A stretch of DNA of 37,212 nucleotides, taken from Limnochordia bacterium. GTDB taxonomy: Bacteria; Bacillota; Limnochordia; Darwinibacteriales; DTU012. The notes under the pieces are model-generated. The model did no database searches and was not told the DNA's origin. It worked only from the letters and a program-made list of their open reading frames with translations. The first letter of the stretch is position 1. The number at the start of each line of letters is the position of its first letter. This document shows positions 3,135 to 33,568 of this stretch, piece after piece. Both the position numbers and the translations under genes were made by a program. The stretch spans positions 1-37,212 of the forward strand of contig SKJB01000036.1 of NCBI GenBank assembly GCA_007116145.1. The letters run 5' to 3'.

Positions 3135-4377
3135 TTATCCTGCCAGGCGCAATTGGTATCGAGATTGTAGACACTCGCTAAGCACTTTGACACTTAGCCA
3201 AGGACTCATTAGTGTGTTCATGACTAGTGCAATCAGACCACTTTCTGTATAGGTATAAATAGCCTTCTCTAGATCAGAAAGAGCGAGAACGATTTCATTT
3301 AGCAGATGCCCAATTCGCATTAAATAGTGGTACCCCTTCATTGCTGTCCAATCGCTTGAAAACAGGTGTTCATACTGGAAACCATGGCGTTTCTCCTTGA
3401 GAATGGATTCCTCAATCATCCAACGTTGGCGTCCTATCTGATTGCATCGGTAAACGACATTTTTTTCATTAATGGGCTTTCTAGATAACCAAGCAAAGCG
3501 AACCGTTTTCTCTTTTAAGCTATTTGTTTTCAGATCAATAACCATATACCGTTCTGTGCAGATAACTACATGTAGCATCACTTATTCTCGTCCACGATTA
3601 AACCAATACTCAATGTCATTTACCCATTGGAATGTCTGTTGACGATCATACCAGGTGTGCGCAAGCGTATTTTCTGGTTGCAATTGCAGTAAAGCCGTTG
3701 TTTCCTGCCAAACCGTCGGAAGGGAATCATCCTTAAGTACAATCTTGTTAAGAACAATATTGGCCTCTAAAACATAGACATAATACTCCTTATCCTCTTG
3801 CTCGTTTTCTTTTCTTCGCAATGCTTGCTCAGCCCATGGATAGTCGCGGCTACATTTGCGGGTTCCATCTACAGCAATCTGGTAGCATTTGTTGTGGAGA
3901 AATCGGGTAAATGCTTTCCTGCGAATTAAGTCCCTAACAAGCGAAGCTAAGGCATGTTGAATCATTTCCACATCTATTCTAGTCAAGAAACGGTTTAATG
4001 TATCCACATGCGGCATGGTTTCTAATTCTGGTACTATCGCTCGGATGTTCTCTAAAAATTGAGGTTGCGTCAAGGTTCGATTCGCTTTCCGTCGAGAGTC
4101 TAGGCGGAAAAAGAATAGCGATAGGGATTTGCTAGCCAGATTTTTAACGTTTACCCATGGAAAAATAAGAAAACGAGAATTGTTAACAACAAGATGAATT
4201 CGCTTTTTACGATCCTCTATATCCCAGCCAAGCCACAGGTCTCTGCTCTCCAAGGCCCAAGCCGATGCTGAAAATAGTAAACAACCTAAGTTTATACCCT
4301 AAGGGATGGTAGCGGTGAACATATTCCGCCCAAAGACTGTGGTCAGTCGCATTTTCTGCAATCTGGACTCCTTTCAT
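3135..4377 (-). pseudogene. inactivated insertion sequence: DUF4338 region joined to DDE transposase
   Basis: Reading the minus strand from 4377, the frame gives a short DUF4338-like N-terminus (DHSLWAEYVHRYHPLGYK). It then loses frame near 4290-4300 and continues as GCLLFSASAWALESRDLW and LHLVVNNSRFLIFPWV-like blocks typical of DUF4338 (the DruA family). At about VKNLASKSLSLFFFRLDSRR it passes into a DDE transposase (PHVDTLNRFLTRID, IAVDGTRKCSRDYPW, EYYVYVLEAN, VLKDDSLPTVW, RWMIEESILKEK, WTAMKGYHYLMRIGHLLN). Lesions: the N-terminal frameshift or deletion; a gap between VLEANIV and VLKDDSLP where a region containing a second catalytic Asp is expected; and a single in-frame TAA at 3582-3584 before the C-terminal third (3135-3581). 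It cannot make a working transposase. No flanking inverted repeats or target duplication were recognised. Confidence 0.75.
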
Positions 4378-11969: not shown

Positions 11970-12281
11970 TTAATGAGGCATATCTGCTCCTCTAGCACGC
12001 CCAGTATTTTCCTGACAATCATAATCATCTTCACGATCTATATGCCGAGTTATCACTAATACATCGATAAACTGTAAAATAGCGTATACTAAAGCTATAT
12101 CTAAGAAGGCTTTTGCTTGGAGTTTAAATGATAACAATAATAATAAACTAAATAACATTAGACCTATCGAGTTTGCAGCTACAACCCGCTGGGCTACAGT
12201 TGGTCCACGCAGAGCTCTTACGAAGGTTAGAAAAGCTGTTAGTACGATAAACATAATAATATAGATCATAGGGATATCCAC
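11970..12281 (-). CDS. mrpF: Na+/H+ antiporter subunit F
   Basis: 103 residues, three membrane spans. RGPTVAQRVVAANSIG and FLDIALVYAILQFIDVLVI are diagnostic of MrpF/MnhF. The start lies 16 bases inside the end of mrpE. Subunits E, F and G form the peripheral part of the Mrp complex. Confidence 0.88.
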   Translation of the reverse strand: MDIPMIYIIMFIVLTAFLTFVRALRGPTVAQRVVAANSIGLMLFSLLLLLSFKLQAKAFLDIALVYAILQFIDVLVITRHIDREDDYDCQENTGRARGADMPH

Positions 12282-25913: not shown

Positions 25914-27437
25914 ATGGAAAGACCGAATATTTTGTTGGTATTTACGGACCAACAGCGTTTTGACACCATTGAAGCATTAGGTAATCCAGTTATAAAGACG
26001 CCAGTCTTAAATAAACTTGTAGAAAATGGAATAACATTTACAAGGGCATATACGCCCTGTCCAGTATGTGCACCTGCAAGATATTCAATGCATACAGGAC
26101 AGATGCCGCATAGAACAGATTTATTTGAGAATGGTCGTATGCCAGAAGGTAGAAAGAGTTTTATGGAAGTTCTTAAGGAAAATGGCTATCAGACTTTTGG
26201 TGCAGGAAAAATGCATTTTAGCTTTGAAACGGGAAAAAGTACAATGTGGGGTTTTGATCAAAGAGCAGTGTGCGACGAGAACGAAAGGTTAGAAAAGAAC
26301 GAGTTTTATCAAAATTGCAAAGATAACGGATATGATCATGTGTATGATTATAAAGGCGTAAGAGGTGAAATGTACTATATTCCGCAGGTATCTCAATTGC
26401 CAGAGAGACTGCATCATTCAGCGTGGACTGCAGATTCAACCATTAAGTTTCTTAAAGGAAGAGAGGAAGACAAACCATTTTTTGCAATGACCTCATTTGA
26501 AAAGCCACATCCTCCGTTTGAACCGCCTGTACCTTGGAACAAGTTATATCGTGGACCTAATATGCCGCTCCCTAAAAGACCCGAAAAACCGGAAGCGATG
26601 CAGACCTTGTGGAATCAGTTCCAAAACAGATATAAGTATCGAGATCAAGGAATGGATGATAACTTGATCCGCCAAATGAAAGCTTATTATTATGCTGAAA
26701 TATCATTTGTAGATTACAATCTAGGAAGATTGTTAAAGTATATGGAAGAAGACAATATTTTAGATAATACGCTTATTATTTACACCTCAGACCACGGAGA
26801 GATGCTTGGGGATTATAACTGTTTTGGGAAACGATGCTTTCTAGACTCAGCAGCGAGGATTCCTATGATTCTACAATATCCTGGCTGCGAGGAGAACAAG
26901 AAATGTAATACACCAGTGTCGTTGATAGATATTATGCCAACGTTCTTAGAGTTTGCTGGTATTCCTGCTGAGGAAGATTATTCAGGAGTAAGCTTATTGA
27001 AAATTCTTGATGGTACCAGTAATAGAGATATGATTATTGGGCAGTATGAGCAAGAAGGATATGCTTCGTATATGGCACTAAATGAAGAATACAAGTATAT
27101 TTATTCTGCGCCAGACAATAAAGAATTCCTTTTTGATCTTACTATCGATCCAGAAGAAACAAGGAATAAGGCATATAGTCCGTTGTACTTTGAAAAGACA
27201 AAGGAAATGAGAGATCAACTTATTAACTATTTCAAGCAAGAAGGGTATATGACACCAATTGAAGAGAATGATTGGAAGAAGTTTCCAATTAAAGAAATGC
27301 CAGATGACCCCGATGCATATCTGCTGTTTCAAGATCACGAAAGCAGCATTCCACATATCCCTGGGTATGAAACAGATGCTAATTCTAAAAAGTTTTTTAA
27401 ATTTGCATGGTATGATAAGCTGTATCATAAAGTATAG
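25914..27437 (+). CDS. type I sulfatase (Cys-type), cytoplasmic
   Basis: 507 residues of the alkaline-phosphatase-fold sulfatase family. The modification motif CAPAR (C52-R56, within PVCAPARYSMHTGQ) fits C-x-P-x-R, so C52 must be converted to formylglycine. Metal and sulfate ligands are seen in NILLVFTDQQRFD, FEKPHPPFEPP and YTSDHGEMLGDYN; the C-terminus has FLFDLTIDPEETRN. There is no signal peptide, so it acts on imported sulfated molecules rather than on polymer outside. It is the last gene of the racemase-transketolase-DUF1593 run, 104 bases after DUF1593, with a GGGGG-containing RBS. Overall form resembles choline-sulfatase or glycan sulfatases; the substrate is unknown. A terminator lies 125 bases downstream. 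Confidence 0.88.
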   Translation: MERPNILLVFTDQQRFDTIEALGNPVIKTPVLNKLVENGITFTRAYTPCPVCAPARYSMHTGQMPHRTDLFENGRMPEGRKSFMEVLKENGYQTFGAGKMHFSFETGKSTMWGFDQRAVCDENERLEKNEFYQNCKDNGYDHVYDYKGVRGEMYYIPQVSQLPERLHHSAWTADSTIKFLKGREEDKPFFAMTSFEKPHPPFEPPVPWNKLYRGPNMPLPKRPEKPEAMQTLWNQFQNRYKYRDQGMDDNLIRQMKAYYYAEISFVDYNLGRLLKYMEEDNILDNTLIIYTSDHGEMLGDYNCFGKRCFLDSAARIPMILQYPGCEENKKCNTPVSLIDIMPTFLEFAGIPAEEDYSGVSLLKILDGTSNRDMIIGQYEQEGYASYMALNEEYKYIYSAPDNKEFLFDLTIDPEETRNKAYSPLYFEKTKEMRDQLINYFKQEGYMTPIEENDWKKFPIKEMPDDPDAYLLFQDHESSIPHIPGYETDANSKKFFKFAWYDKLYHKV

Positions 27438-27524: not shown

Positions 27525-27561
27525 AAGGATGTATACGTTTCTACCAAATTCGTTACAAAGA

Positions 27562-27611
27562 TAGGACTAAGCAAACACATGCGCTGTTTTTGCTTAGTCC
27601 TACTTTTATTG
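27562..27611 (+). terminator. intrinsic terminator of the sulfatase operon
   Basis: TAGGACTAAGCAAA (27562-27575) and TTTGCTTAGTCCTA (27589-27602) form a perfect 14-bp stem with a 13-nt loop, followed by CTTTTATTG. Confidence 0.75.
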
Positions 27612-27700: not shown

Positions 27701-27729
27701 TTGACATCGGGATGGTTAGCTGATATAGT
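27701..27729 (+). promoter_or_regulatory. promoter of the NAS/FeoA-feoB operon
   Basis: TTGACA (27701-27706), 17-base spacer, TATAGT (27724-27729). This is the best promoter between the terminator and the gene start and gives a leader of about 155 bases. Confidence 0.7.
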
Positions 27730-27744
27730 TGGCATGGGACAATT

Positions 27745-27763
27745 GACAATGATTTTCATTCCC
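27745..27763. promoter_or_regulatory. candidate Fur box
   Basis: GACAATGATTTTCATTCCC matches the classical 19-base Fur consensus (GATAATGATAATCATTATC) at 14 of 19 positions, with the core dyad AATGA-TTT-TCATT intact. It begins about 15 bases after the -10 element, so a bound repressor would block early transcription. The match was found by eye, and the local regulator's true consensus is unknown. Confidence 0.5.
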
Positions 27764-27890
27764 TGCGGCGACTCCTCAGGTCGATGAAGCGCCTATACGG
27801 GGAAGCTGTTTCATCTCGTAGTTTGATAACATGTCCTACGGTTTGATGGTGGTCAACGGTCCTCACACACTTTTGAAGGAAGGTGTTTAT

Positions 27891-28769
27891 GTGATATCGA
27901 CACAAATCTCAATGAAAAAACCGAGAACGTTTAAGTGCCGGATAACTGCCCTTTTGCTAAATGCAGTTAAAGGAATAGAAGAGTTAGGCGCACAGTGTAT
28001 TCCTTTAGGCCGAATCCACACCTCTATGTTTTATCGGAAAATGATTGCTAAAGAAATCCTACTTGCGGGGTTAGAGCCTGGTATGCGCATACTCCATATT
28101 GGCAGTGGTCGGTTACCAATGACGGCAATATCCCTGGCGGAAAGGGGTTTTACTGTCGACGCCATGGATAATGATTCCAGATCCGTTGAACTGTCTAAAA
28201 GGGTAATTAGCAAATTGGGCTACGAAGGTCAAGTTACGGTTCTGCTTGGCGACGGGTGTCATGTCGACTGTTCGGAATACGATGCGGTCCTGTTGTCACT
28301 CCACATTATGCCCAAGGAAGAGGTCATAGGTCAAGTGTTACAGAGTCTAAAAAAGGAAGGACGGCTGGTGTATCGCAATCCCCGAGGATTGTTTAACTAT
28401 TTCTATGCTAGAGTGTACCCTAGAGACTTAGCCAACCAATACTCGTATCGCACTACGGACCAATCTCTAGGCAAAGAAACTGTTGTAATACATAACATGC
28501 ACAGTACATCGAGCACTGTTTCTCTGAGTTCGATGGTTGTGGGAAACTCCGGTACAATACTATCTGCTGCGCCAATATCCCAGGCTACATCTATGGGGAT
28601 TCGTCCTGGAAAACAGGTGACTGTTCAAGCGATTCAACACTTTGGGGGTCCATATATTGTAGCTATTGATAATCGCTCTGTGGCTGTACCCCGTTCGTTA
28701 GCCGCCAAAATTCAAATAGGTAAGTTAGGTGATTCCCATGAGACAGAGTGCATTACAGCATCCAGCTAA
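27891..28769 (+). CDS. nicotianamine-synthase/CntL-like domain fused to FeoA
   Basis: 292 residues from the GTG at 27891, which has AAGGTG five bases upstream; an in-frame start at 27831 has no such site. Residues ~40-170 form a SAM-binding domain. Its first motif, RILHIGSGRLPMTAISLAER, is the GSG-x-(L/F)-P-(M/L)-T form seen in nicotianamine synthases and staphylopine-pathway CntL, not the usual methyltransferase G-x-G-x-G. DAMDNDSRSVELSKRVI, YDAVLLSLHIMPKEEVI and GRLVYRNPRG complete it. These enzymes transfer an aminobutyrate group from S-adenosylmethionine. Residues ~210-277 (SLSSMVVGNSGTILSA, ATSMGIRPGKQVTVQAI, VAVPRSLAAKIQIG) are an SH3-like FeoA domain. The stop lies 32 bases inside feoB, so the two products are coupled. 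The enzymatic product is unknown. Confidence 0.7.
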   Translation: MISTQISMKKPRTFKCRITALLLNAVKGIEELGAQCIPLGRIHTSMFYRKMIAKEILLAGLEPGMRILHIGSGRLPMTAISLAERGFTVDAMDNDSRSVELSKRVISKLGYEGQVTVLLGDGCHVDCSEYDAVLLSLHIMPKEEVIGQVLQSLKKEGRLVYRNPRGLFNYFYARVYPRDLANQYSYRTTDQSLGKETVVIHNMHSTSSTVSLSSMVVGNSGTILSAAPISQATSMGIRPGKQVTVQAIQHFGGPYIVAIDNRSVAVPRSLAAKIQIGKLGDSHETECITASS

Positions 28770-30474
28770 ACCCACAATTTTGCTAATTGGACCTCCGAAC
28801 GTTGGCAAAAGCGCCCTATTTAATCAATTGACTTCCATGAATGTTAGTGTTGGTAACTATGCTGGCACTACTGTGGAATTCTCGGCTTGTGACATTAACT
28901 TGCACGGCAATACTGTCAAGCTGATTGACGTCCCAGGGACATACACTCTCCACTCTGCTAATGAAGCAGAAAAAGTCGCTGTCGATATGCTCAATCAGAA
29001 GCCAGACGCAGTAGTAGTTACTCTAGATGCCAACAGCTTGGAGCCGAGCTTATATTTGCTATTACAGATTCTTGCCTATCAGATCCCTACTATGGCAGTG
29101 ATCAATCGATGGGATCTAGCTGAGAAAAGAGGTGTATCCTTTGATCTAGACGGTTTTTCTCAGGAACTTGGCATATCGGTAGTTCCTACTGTGGCCATAG
29201 AGGGGGAAGGTCTCGGTGAGTTAAGAGAAAAATTATCTGGGATGTTAACAGCCCCTAACCCACACAAATTGGCACACGAGTTGACATCAGAAGCAAGATG
29301 GATAATGGTAGATGATTTATTAGCGCGGTATGTATCATCCCAACCGAGTATCGCTACAGGAGAGTCCTGGGGTGCTAAGCTTGTGAATCCCTGGCCCGGT
29401 ATTCCTCTCGCTATGCTTATTGTCAGTGCAGTGTTTGCTGTGGTTATCGGACTAGGAATGGGTCTACGGAACTTTCTTCTCTTACCCTTGTTTAGGGGTG
29501 TCTTAATTCCTATTGTGGTCGGAATGATCGAAGCATTGACACCAACAGGCCTATTGCAGAGAGTTCTTATTGGCGAGTATGGTTTCTTAATTAAGGGAAT
29601 TGAATGGCCATTTACTCTCGTGCTGCCTTACGTATTCTCGTTTTATCTAGCTTTGAGTTTTTTGGAAGATACGGGGTATTTGCCAAGACTCGGTGTCCTA
29701 CTTGATGGTCTATTACAAAAAATTGGTCTGCAGGGATCGAGTGTGATTCCTTTGTTGCTCGGATATGGATGTGGTATTCCAGGGATTCTAGCAACTCGTT
29801 CTTTTGGTTCACATAAAGAGCGCTTATCTGTTTCTTTATTAATCTGCCTTGCTGTCCCATGTATCTCACAGACTGGAGCCTTTATCTCCTTGCTAGCTGC
29901 ACATTCTTTTTTACTAATTATTGCAACGTTTGGGGTATCTGTGATGGCACTAATTGTTGCTGGCTTGATTCTAGATAAAGTATTAGTAGAGAAGAAGGTG
30001 TTTTCCTTGATGGAGATTCCCGATCTTCTTTGGCCGAAACCACGCATAATTGCAAAAAAAGTGTGGAACAGGCTACGTAACTACGTATTTGATGGAGCTC
30101 TACCCATGTTTTGGGCGATAGCTGCAGCAGCTGTGCTTTATGAAAGTGGTATCATGGCGGTATGGGGGAATCTGATTAGTCCGATTGTCATTGGTTGGTT
30201 ACGCTTGCCAGAAGCGGCATCTGTTCCACTAGTATTAGGCATTCTTCGACGAGAACTCACTGTTTTGCCGTTGATTGATATGGATCTCACGTCACTCCAG
30301 CTCTTCACGGGTGCTGTAGTTGGTCTATTCTATGTGCCGTGCATTGCGATGGTGGGGACACTAAGCCGCGAGTTCAAGCTGCCAACTGCTCTTGCGATTC
30401 TTGGAACAACCACGTTTGTGGCAATTTTTGTCGGAGGTATTGTGGCTAGAGTAGGCGTTCTGCTACATTTTTAG
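28738..30474 (+). CDS. feoB: variant ferrous iron/divalent metal transporter FeoB
   Basis: 578 residues from the ATG at 28738 (AGGTGAT four bases upstream; GTG at 28729 is an alternative). The N-terminal G domain has G1 GPPNVGKS (18-25), NYAGTTVEF, G3 DVPGTY and G4 as INRWD. After the G domain come about eight to ten membrane spans. Differences from classical FeoB: it is shorter (E. coli protein ~770); G4 has INRWD where N-x-x-D usually reads NMxD; and the first gate motif reads GYGCGIPG instead of GFGCNVPA. The second gate block GLFYVPCIAMVGTL keeps the Cys-Pro pair. It overlaps the NAS/FeoA fusion gene, so both belong to one metal-uptake unit. Metal specificity may not be plain Fe(II). Confidence 0.85.
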   Translation: MRQSALQHPAKPTILLIGPPNVGKSALFNQLTSMNVSVGNYAGTTVEFSACDINLHGNTVKLIDVPGTYTLHSANEAEKVAVDMLNQKPDAVVVTLDANSLEPSLYLLLQILAYQIPTMAVINRWDLAEKRGVSFDLDGFSQELGISVVPTVAIEGEGLGELREKLSGMLTAPNPHKLAHELTSEARWIMVDDLLARYVSSQPSIATGESWGAKLVNPWPGIPLAMLIVSAVFAVVIGLGMGLRNFLLLPLFRGVLIPIVVGMIEALTPTGLLQRVLIGEYGFLIKGIEWPFTLVLPYVFSFYLALSFLEDTGYLPRLGVLLDGLLQKIGLQGSSVIPLLLGYGCGIPGILATRSFGSHKERLSVSLLICLAVPCISQTGAFISLLAAHSFLLIIATFGVSVMALIVAGLILDKVLVEKKVFSLMEIPDLLWPKPRIIAKKVWNRLRNYVFDGALPMFWAIAAAAVLYESGIMAVWGNLISPIVIGWLRLPEAASVPLVLGILRRELTVLPLIDMDLTSLQLFTGAVVGLFYVPCIAMVGTLSREFKLPTALAILGTTTFVAIFVGGIVARVGVLLHF

Positions 30475-30655: not shown

Positions 30656-30723
30656 AGTAGATGGTGGTCGCGGAGCCTGCGAGTTGAACAAATAATTGCT
30701 GTATGAAAGAAAGGAATGAAAAA

Positions 30724-32013
30724 ATGTCAAAGACGAAATTGGAAATAAAAGGAAAGCAGTTCTATATTAATGGTAAACTTACATATTCCACTATAGAGAA
30801 TAGTAATCCTGAAGTTCACGGTCTTTTAATGAATGCTCGTTTTATCCAGGGTATATTTGATGATAAGGAAGATAGGACTAGATTTAACCGGTTTGGAAGA
30901 ACGTTTGATCCAGATAAGAATACAGATGACCTGATTAAAGCTTTACCAGAGTGGTATAATTATGGTCTTCGGGCGTTTACTGTTGGTTTCCAAGGGGGAG
31001 GCCCATGTTTTACCATGGGTGGTAAAGAGAGATCGACGATTGATAATAATCCTTTTAGCAGTGATGGTACGGAAATTGATCCAGATTATCTAAAGAGAAT
31101 GGATAGGCTGATAAGAGCAGCTGACGATCTAGGAATGGTAGTAATAGTCTCTTATTTCTATTGGTCCCAAACCACCCCGCGCTTGAAAACGGGAAACGCG
31201 ATTGTTAATGCTGTGAAAGCAGCGTCAAATTTCCTGCGAGATAATGCTTATACAAATGTGATTATAGAGATTGCTAACGAGCATAACGTTAGCCCCTTTG
31301 GCGAACACGATCTTATTAGAACAGCACAGGGCATAAGTCTCTTAATGGATATTGCGAGAAAAGAATCGGGTGGTTTACCTGTAGGCTCAAGTGGTAGCGG
31401 CGGTTATATTAATCAAGAAGAGGCTGCAGCTAGTGATGTTGTCATTATTCATTCTAACAAACAGACCCGTCAAGGATATTATAATATGATCAAGCAGGTT
31501 CGGGAGTGGGAACCCAACAAACCAATAGTTTCTAATGAAGATTCCCAGGCAATTGGTCAATTGAAAGTGGCATACCAGTCCAGAACTTCATGGGGTTATT
31601 ACAATAATATGACTAAACAGGAACCGCCGGTTGATTGGAGTATAACCGAAGGTGAAGACAGATTTTTTGCTTATAGGATGGCGCAGGGTATCGGATTAGA
31701 GGTGCCTGTTTTACCAGAAGAAGAACAATTTCATTTACATGGTTTTGAAAAAGATATAGAGATCGAAGGGAAGCGTTGGATAAGGTTAGCCAGTCTTTAT
31801 CCAGAGACAATAGACTTTGTTGAGTTTTACAGGGATAATGAACTTGAATATGTTAGTTATGATGAATCATTTTCTGTTAATTTCAAAGGTAACTGGTCTC
31901 AGGGTCCCAGTAGAGTTAATGAGGGTGAGAAGTGGAAAGCTGTTATTCATCGCACAAATGGAGAGATTATCGTTAAAGAAAAGACAGTGCCCAAGGTTTC
32001 CACAGACGCCTAG
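30724..32013 (+). CDS. clan-A-like glycoside hydrolase (GH5-like), copy 1
   Basis: 429 residues from the ATG at 30724 (AAAGGA eight bases upstream), matching the start of its paralog; the ATG at 30703 adds seven codons without homology. The sequence has a TIM-barrel layout with ITKE-type landmarks: a conserved front block (HGLLMNARFIQGIFDD, NRFGRTFDP, GLRAFTVGFQGGGPCFT), then DLGMVVIVSYFYW. The candidate acid/base E186 is in IEIANEHN (strand 4 Asn-Glu) and the candidate nucleophile E272 in PIVSNEDSQA (strand 7). A beta-sandwich-like tail follows (~330-425). There is no signal peptide, so it is intracellular. The assignment to GH5 or another clan-A family is not certain, and the substrate is unknown. 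Confidence 0.7.
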   Translation: MSKTKLEIKGKQFYINGKLTYSTIENSNPEVHGLLMNARFIQGIFDDKEDRTRFNRFGRTFDPDKNTDDLIKALPEWYNYGLRAFTVGFQGGGPCFTMGGKERSTIDNNPFSSDGTEIDPDYLKRMDRLIRAADDLGMVVIVSYFYWSQTTPRLKTGNAIVNAVKAASNFLRDNAYTNVIIEIANEHNVSPFGEHDLIRTAQGISLLMDIARKESGGLPVGSSGSGGYINQEEAAASDVVIIHSNKQTRQGYYNMIKQVREWEPNKPIVSNEDSQAIGQLKVAYQSRTSWGYYNNMTKQEPPVDWSITEGEDRFFAYRMAQGIGLEVPVLPEEEQFHLHGFEKDIEIEGKRWIRLASLYPETIDFVEFYRDNELEYVSYDESFSVNFKGNWSQGPSRVNEGEKWKAVIHRTNGEIIVKEKTVPKVSTDA

Positions 32014-32326: not shown

Positions 32327-33568
32327 GTGGGAAAAACAGTACTTACGGTTCAGGGTGAGGATTTTTACATTAACGGACAGAAAATCTATGCAGACATACC
32401 AGGTAGCAAACCAGAAGCACATGGTTTACTGATGAATGCTCGTTTTATTCAAGGTATTTATGATGACAAATTGAATCCAGAGCGATTCAATCGCTTCGGA
32501 CGAAGCTTTGATCCTGATACGAACACAGATGATCTTATTTCAGCTTTACCTCAATGGTATAGCTATGGATTACGAGCATTTACCGTGGGGATTCAGGGCG
32601 GCGGAGCTTGTTTTACTATCATGAATACTACAGTTGAGAATAATCCATTTGGGGCAGATGGAAAACAAATTGATCCCGATTATCTTGATAGGCTAGATCG
32701 ACTAATTACTGCCGCCGATGAGCTAGGTATGGTTGTAATCGTTAGCTACTTCTATCCTTTTCAAGTACAACGAATTAAAGATGGGCGTTCAGTAGCGAAT
32801 GCAGTTCGTACCGCGTCTCGGTTCTTAAAACAAAAAGGGTATACCAACGTCATTATTGAGATTTGTAACGAAATGAATGGAGCGAAGTCCCACTCAATCA
32901 TTCAGCAGCCTGAAGGCATGGCCGTTTTGATTGAGCTAGCCAGAGAAGAATCAGGGGGCATGCTGGTAGGATGCAGTCCTACAGGTGGTATTTCCTATCC
33001 TGAAGTTAGTGAGGCAAGCGATGTTATTCTCATTCATGGAAATAAATGTAGTCGGCAAAACTACTATAACTTAATTGCTACTGTTAGAAGTGAGAGTCCA
33101 GGAAAACCTGTTGTGTCTAATGAAGACTCACAGGCAATTGGGCAACTTAAGGTAGCGTATGAAACCCACACTTCATGGGGTTACTATAATAATAGTACGA
33201 AGCAAGAGCCCCCTACAGATTGGTCCATTACTAGAGGCGAGGATCAATTTTTTGCCTGGCGTATGGCTGAAGGTATAGGGATAGATGTACCAGCAATTCC
33301 AGAAGAAGAACAGTATTATCTCCAAGGATTAGAGCCGAATAATACCTATGAAGGCAACCGGTGGCTCCGATTAGCGAGCCTATATCCAGAGAGTATTGAT
33401 CATGTCAAGTTCTACTGTAATGATAGCCACGTCTATACTTGTTATGATGAACCGTTCTCTATGGATTTCATATCCAATTGGCGTCAGGGTCCACAACGCG
33501 TTGAGCCAGACGATATATGGAAGGCTGTTATCTATCTCCGTGATGGTCGAGTGATTGAACGTTCTTAA
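32327..33568 (+). CDS. clan-A-like glycoside hydrolase (GH5-like), copy 2
   Basis: 413 residues; GTG start with AAAGGAGG seven bases upstream. It is a tandem paralog of the preceding gene: the blocks HGLLMNARFIQGI, NRFGR-FDPD-NTDDLI-ALP, YGLRAFTVG-QGGG-CFT, IDPDYL, LGMVVIVSYFY and SNEDSQAIGQLKVAY are shared and well over half of all positions look identical. The catalytic pair is retained (E182 in IEICNEMN, E266 in VVSNEDSQ). Differences concentrate after strand 3 (YPFQVQRIKDGR versus YWSQTTPRLKTG) and after the acid/base, where substrate loops usually lie, so the copies may recognise different glycosides. No signal peptide. Confidence 0.7.
   Translation: MGKTVLTVQGEDFYINGQKIYADIPGSKPEAHGLLMNARFIQGIYDDKLNPERFNRFGRSFDPDTNTDDLISALPQWYSYGLRAFTVGIQGGGACFTIMNTTVENNPFGADGKQIDPDYLDRLDRLITAADELGMVVIVSYFYPFQVQRIKDGRSVANAVRTASRFLKQKGYTNVIIEICNEMNGAKSHSIIQQPEGMAVLIELAREESGGMLVGCSPTGGISYPEVSEASDVILIHGNKCSRQNYYNLIATVRSESPGKPVVSNEDSQAIGQLKVAYETHTSWGYYNNSTKQEPPTDWSITRGEDQFFAWRMAEGIGIDVPAIPEEEQYYLQGLEPNNTYEGNRWLRLASLYPESIDHVKFYCNDSHVYTCYDEPFSMDFISNWRQGPQRVEPDDIWKAVIYLRDGRVIERS

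Follow-up and report, generated by a model that had tools for sequence, protein, structure and literature searches.

Anaerobes import ferrous iron mainly through Feo, and a contig from a Limnochordia bacterium raises the question of why an enzyme resembling nicotianamine synthase (NAS) should share one polypeptide with FeoA directly ahead of feoB. The window, meaning the whole stretch of 37,212 nucleotides that was analysed, had been the subject of an earlier note made from the sequence alone, which read this frame as a NAS/CntL-like enzyme fused to FeoA and proposed that metallophore or opine synthesis, or SAM/iron sensing, would thereby be coupled to FeoB. Here the domains, relatives and gene neighbours of the protein are used to ask what the enzyme may do for iron uptake.

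A NAS-like domain joined to FeoA

The coding features of the locus are the following.

27891..28769, + strand: NAS1-FeoA fusion ORF, 292 aa, GTG start at 27891, stop at 28769
27930..28505, + strand: NAS-like domain, residues ~14-205 (AlphaFold2 model, VIA-align, Pfam NAS)
27978..27980, + strand: codon of Glu30, the conserved Glu that structural registration sets on MtNAS Glu81
28032..28034, + strand: codon of Tyr48, an invariant Tyr equivalent to MtNAS Tyr107
28101..28118, + strand: GSGRLP, NAS-type SAM-binding motif I, residues 71-76 (sequence, alignment)
28374..28376, + strand: codon of Arg162, an invariant Arg, with one also in MtNAS and CntL
28497..28520, + strand: fusion junction, where the separate genes of G167 and G168 overlap by 13 nt
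28521..28718, + strand: FeoA (SH3-like) domain, residues 211-276 (PF04023, 43.4 bits)
28738..30474, + strand: feoB, 578 aa, short type (TIGR00437 320.9 bits against a cut-off of 315.65; PF02421/PF07670)

The GTG start is preceded by the Shine-Dalgarno-like sequence GAAGGAAGG at 27875-27883, and an in-frame ATG lies further upstream at 27831 without a visible Shine-Dalgarno sequence. Both halves of the protein exceed their Pfam cut-offs: the C-terminal FeoA domain matches PF04023 with 43.4 bits against 23 (E 3.7e-11), as had been claimed, and residues 65-183 match the NAS family PF03059 with 30.9 bits against 27.1 (E 2.2e-7). With both domains over cut-off and the two parts adjoining in relatives, a chance overlap of two domains was dropped. 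Weaker Pfam matches fall to PCMT (25.8 bits) and Methyltransf_31. When the ORF is compared with the PDB by sequence, the MtNAS entries come first (E about 1e-12), followed by isoaspartate methyltransferases (1e-4) and CntL (3e-4). The match to the CntL equivalog model NF033601 reaches 31.5 bits against a cut-off of 350, and because it is this weak the domain is, judged by its sequence, NAS/CntL-like and not CntL; neither the opine dehydrogenase CntM nor CntK lies beside the ORF, which is flanked by feoB downstream and a sulfatase gene upstream. The identification as a true CntL was dropped, both the equivalog cut-off and the gene context having failed.

The AlphaFold2 model predicts a Rossmann SAM domain preceded by two N-terminal helices. 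Its NAS part lies mostly above 90 pLDDT and its FeoA part is low, because FeoA-only rows, which misaligned when added, were left out of the alignment used for the prediction; a canonical member of the same family (L040) was modelled at pLDDT 92.4. MtNAS is the best structural match of both, with Z 21.9 for the window model and 21.4 for the canonical one, CntL is second with Z 18.6 for both, and ordinary methyltransferases stay at or below 17.8. The earlier note had named, as findings that would count against it, a clear placement of residues 40-170 among ordinary class I methyltransferases or a failed FeoA match; NAS is the best match by profile and by structure, and the FeoA match holds. A plain PCMT-type methyltransferase, below NAS in the Pfam, PDB and structure comparisons, was likewise dropped.

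In a 79-member alignment of the family, E30, Y48, E55, G71, G73, P76, D93 and R162 are kept in all rows with a residue there; counted over such rows, the Glu is conserved in 77/77, the Tyr in 78/78 and the Arg in 79/79. Glu81 and Tyr107 of MtNAS deprotonate the acceptor amine (PMC10491745). Tyr48 pairs with Tyr107 by sequence alignment. The structural alignments start with window residue 8 on MtNAS 59 and with canonical residue 1 on MtNAS 69 and CntL 72, and for either model these offsets bring the conserved helix-1 Glu onto MtNAS Glu81, a register that assumes a gap-free helix 1 and derives from alignment end points of predicted models rather than from inspected coordinates; an ungapped sequence alignment instead sets the Glu against MtNAS Glu90. 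On CntL the same Glu falls on Glu84 in the canonical model, the window model giving 83, one off. The catalytic Glu and Tyr of NAS therefore appear, on these models, to be conserved as E30 and Y48.

Compared with MtNAS (PDB 3FPE/3FPF/3FPJ, PF03059), the window protein shares the SAM-domain fold with its two preceding helices, GxGxxP, the predicted Glu81/Tyr107 equivalents and the Arg, but has about 25% identity and lacks some 50-70 residues of the N-terminal capping domain; its NAS part of ~190-205 aa falls short of a full-length NAS with that domain (~270-320 aa). Since most of the capping domain is absent, the acceptor site may be more open than in NAS. CntL of staphylopine biosynthesis (PDB 7C9M) resembles the protein in fold, SAM motif and the Glu84 register of the L040 model, and differs in that the window ORF is shorter as well as far under the equivalog cut-off. 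By sequence and modelled structure together, NAS-type chemistry is a well supported prediction, and the GSGRLP motif is of NAS/CntL type as first described.

Other features of the window may be recorded here. Two similar GH5-like ORFs in tandem come immediately after the feo operon (30703-32013 and 32327-33568), the sulfatase at 25914-27437 is accompanied in the same window by a sulfatase-modifying-enzyme-like fragment at 1-701, and two adjacent minus-strand ORFs at 3135-4253 resemble, by eye, a broken transposase. No Rfam family was found within the window.

A NAS-like family in feo operons

Searches of 149, 73 and 398 genomes from the same phylum or class recovered a family of NAS-like proteins of ~180-230 aa, typically ~190 aa, in Bacillota. 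Its profile matched in 47 of the 398 genomes, a few of the matches being full-length NAS or CntL-like. Used by itself as query against named genomes, the window protein found no relative; with an eight-row alignment, a 21-row one being too diverse, the named members proved to be Bacillota MAGs, including Clostridia, Tissierellia, a Hydrogenispora and a Ca. Epulonipiscium. Against the family profile the PDB ranks NAS at 5e-25, CntL at 4e-18 and the next methyltransferase at 7e-7, and several relatives match PF03059 at 28.5-51.6 bits, the NAS2 of L033 lying below the cut-off at 25.6.

The tie of this family to FeoB is well supported. In the window the fusion ORF overlaps the downstream feoB by 32 nt, which links FeoA genetically to feoB, and across 45 surveyed family loci feoB lies within three genes on the same strand in 36, bearing out the proposed link. 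A PF03706 flippase-like gene is equally frequent by this measure (36/45), and a phosphatidylserine (PS) synthase-like gene (PSS, PF01066) is present in 16/45. The commonest order is feoA-feoB-NAS-flippase(PF03706)-PSS(PF01066), with feoA-NAS-flippase-feoB and NAS2-flippase-NAS1-feoA-feoB as other arrangements. The best model for the operon PSS proteins is pssA, most of them scoring at or just under the equivalog cut-off. The MprF-like PF03706 partner of the window genome lies outside the window on contig C39, and in L157 it is fused. This setting among feo genes, with flippase and PS synthase, is a further difference from MtNAS. The literature consulted, which was limited, gave no published account of a NAS-feoB operon, of a flippase and a PS synthase in a feo setting, or of SAM-modified lipids with a flippase, in line with the earlier note, whose author knew of no described system of this kind.

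The fusion itself was found in one genome only, that of the window. The closest relatives with intact loci, G167 and G168, are also the nearest with a complete cluster, ordered NAS2-flippase-NAS1-feoA-feoB, and in them NAS1 and feoA are separate neighbours that share 13 nt, read in different frames. A 90-row tree groups the window domain into a ten-member NAS1 clade (100/94), where G199 is its sister (96/84), and the window genome keeps a NAS2-flippase pair on the other contig (L033 6256-7759). Given the overlap in relatives and the NAS2-flippase pair elsewhere, the likeliest reading is that two overlapping genes merged into the window ORF once the cluster had split. An assembly frameshift, with NAS1 and FeoA two overlapping genes in the cell, would be compatible with any reading of function; it draws on the same overlap, on a TGA still present in the other frame at the junction and on an in-frame ATG at 28497 from which FeoA could start. 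That ATG is not preceded by a Shine-Dalgarno sequence, however, the junction holds no long homopolymer, and three further Pfam-confirmed fusions exist among the same set of genes (flippase-NAS1 at L157:5850-7562; flippase-PSS at L086:4100-5578 and L107:6551-8134), which leaves such a frameshift improbable. FeoA is known to occur fused to FeoB and to itself, and the portion of the Feo survey that reports this mentions no FeoA fusion with a NAS-like enzyme, other non-Feo fusions having been removed by hand (PMC8980893).

Regulation and a possible lipid link

Upstream of the fusion gene lie three features that bear on its expression.

27557..27607, no strand: inverted repeat of 23 nt separating the sulfatase gene from the feo operon, likely a terminator
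27701..27729, + strand: promoter-like site TTGACA-17-TATAGT, 11/12 with TG (motif scan)
27744..27758, + strand: Fur-box-like TGACAATGATTTTCA, 12/14, 15 nt downstream of the promoter-like site

Promoter-like sites are about as frequent in the region as in shuffles, and Fur-box-like matches are not rare in the window taken alone (2 found against 0.5 expected, a number also reached in 8 of 100 shuffles). Over the family as a whole, a Fur-box-like site of at least 12/14 stands upstream of 18 of 39 operons, against 38 of 1560 random stretches (2.4%) from the same loci (p 1e-17). The NAS2-flippase locus of the window genome has a site of 11/14, and that genome carries three Fur-family genes. The second match in the window (12/14) lies at 12013-12027, in the region of an Mrp antiporter gene.

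Among genomes with only the single-copy NAS type a strong pssA match is present in 34/34, against a baseline of 65/149 in the phylum sample; by the same pssA search, 2/10 NAS1 genomes have one. Where PSS is absent from the operon, pssA is found elsewhere in 8/8 single-copy genomes of the 149-genome sample, with p 4e-4 for those eight against genomes without the NAS-like family; these pssA statistics were made after the lipid idea arose, on genomes that are related. PS decarboxylase (Psd, PF02666) is absent from all ten canonical-operon genomes tested, so that PS is not converted there to PE by that route; in the window genome pssA and psd lie together on another contig. As 8/10 NAS1 genomes have no pssA, PS cannot be a universal acceptor. 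This pattern fits PS as the acceptor in single-copy systems, with a substitute made by NAS1 elsewhere, and does not prove it. At G005:C2:149343-150883, away from the feo operon, pssA adjoins PF03706 flippase fragments.

A candidate iron-binding lipid

From the computed domains, homology, catalytic-residue conservation, operon, Fur-box enrichment, gene fusions and pssA co-occurrence we infer a reaction, a lipid acceptor that is then flipped, and delivery to FeoB. The N-terminal domain would be a short NAS-type SAM aminobutyryl (3-amino-3-carboxypropyl) transferase, tethered through the FeoA domain to FeoB at the inner membrane face, and the fusion protein would probably be made under iron starvation through Fur. 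The NAS domain and its paralogue may modify the head group of a membrane lipid, by analogy with MprF, which combines a synthase with a PF03706 flippase. In genomes with PssA the acceptor would probably be the phosphatidylserine amine; where pssA is missing, the NAS1 type would probably add the first aminobutyrate to a different lipid. The flippase-like partner would then move the chelating lipid outward, where it may collect Fe2+ for FeoB. We hold this model as a whole tentatively, at somewhat below an even chance. Its wider form, a membrane-anchored metallophore in Bacillota built from a NAS-type aminobutyrylated phospholipid, an MprF-like flippase and Fe2+ supply to FeoB, with NAS1 making an amino-acid head group in the absence of pssA, is more doubtful again.

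Transfer of the 3-amino-3-carboxypropyl group of SAM to a lipid is what the betaine-lipid synthase BtaA does, which gives the proposed chemistry a precedent, although BtaA is not homologous to NAS (PMC10491745). In the lysyl-PG synthase/flippase MprF (NF033480, PF03706) a flippase domain is followed by a head-group-modifying domain, and the flippase-NAS fusion of L157 has the same layout; the modifying domain of MprF is aminoacyl-tRNA-dependent, whereas the one here is of the SAM aminobutyryl-transferase type, and the operon here carries feoAB. Against the lipid model stand the presence of PSS in only about a third of the operons and the breadth of PF03706, a family whose substrates vary.

The principal alternative, which we regard as unlikely, is a small soluble nicotianamine- or opine-like metallophore exported by the PF03706 protein, with the metal entering through FeoB or another importer. 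The products of NAS and CntL are soluble chelators (PMC10491745), and the upstream Fur-box-like sites would suit such a system, as would the L051 member, which adjoins an EamA exporter and an oligopeptide-type ABC importer. FeoB, however, is a channel for free Fe2+, a soluble product leaves the PS-synthase link unexplained, and the conserved partners, which are flippase-like and PS-synthase-like and include neither opine dehydrogenase nor ABC importer, suggest a modified lipid. NAS-type homology thus upholds one part of the metallophore or opine coupling first proposed, and the partners speak against its soluble form; a flipped iron-binding lipid accounts for most of what was observed, more than a soluble metallophore does. 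The short NAS-like gene of L051 (6969-7460, G086), whose ABC transporter has a binding protein and among whose scanned neighbours no opine dehydrogenase was seen, possibly marks a soluble-metallophore locus.

An ordinary class I methyltransferase, whether a PmtA-like lipid N-methyltransferase or some other, that is present in feo operons incidentally would share the fold and accord with the PCMT and Methyltransf_31 matches and the PS-synthase neighbour. It is quite improbable, in that the NAS-specific Glu, Tyr and Arg and GxGxxP are kept throughout the family, NAS and CntL outrank all methyltransferases by profile and structure, and methylation of PE requires Psd, which the ten canonical-operon genomes tested lack. 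Least probable is a non-catalytic SAM sensor acting on FeoB through FeoA: FeoA stabilises GTP-bound FeoB (PMC8980893), and a ligand-binding domain fused to it could adjust that effect. Every catalytic residue is retained, however, paralogues occur in pairs, and a sensor gives no explanation for the partners of flippase and PS-synthase type.

The findings suggest an undescribed route of iron uptake, perhaps with a metal-binding membrane lipid. To the questions of how Fe2+ is gathered, how it is handed over to FeoB and what role FeoA plays, an operon of feoAB with a NAS-type enzyme, a flippase and a PS synthase offers a concrete and testable answer, and, if true, it would add an undescribed class of lipid and a membrane-bound form of metallophore chemistry.
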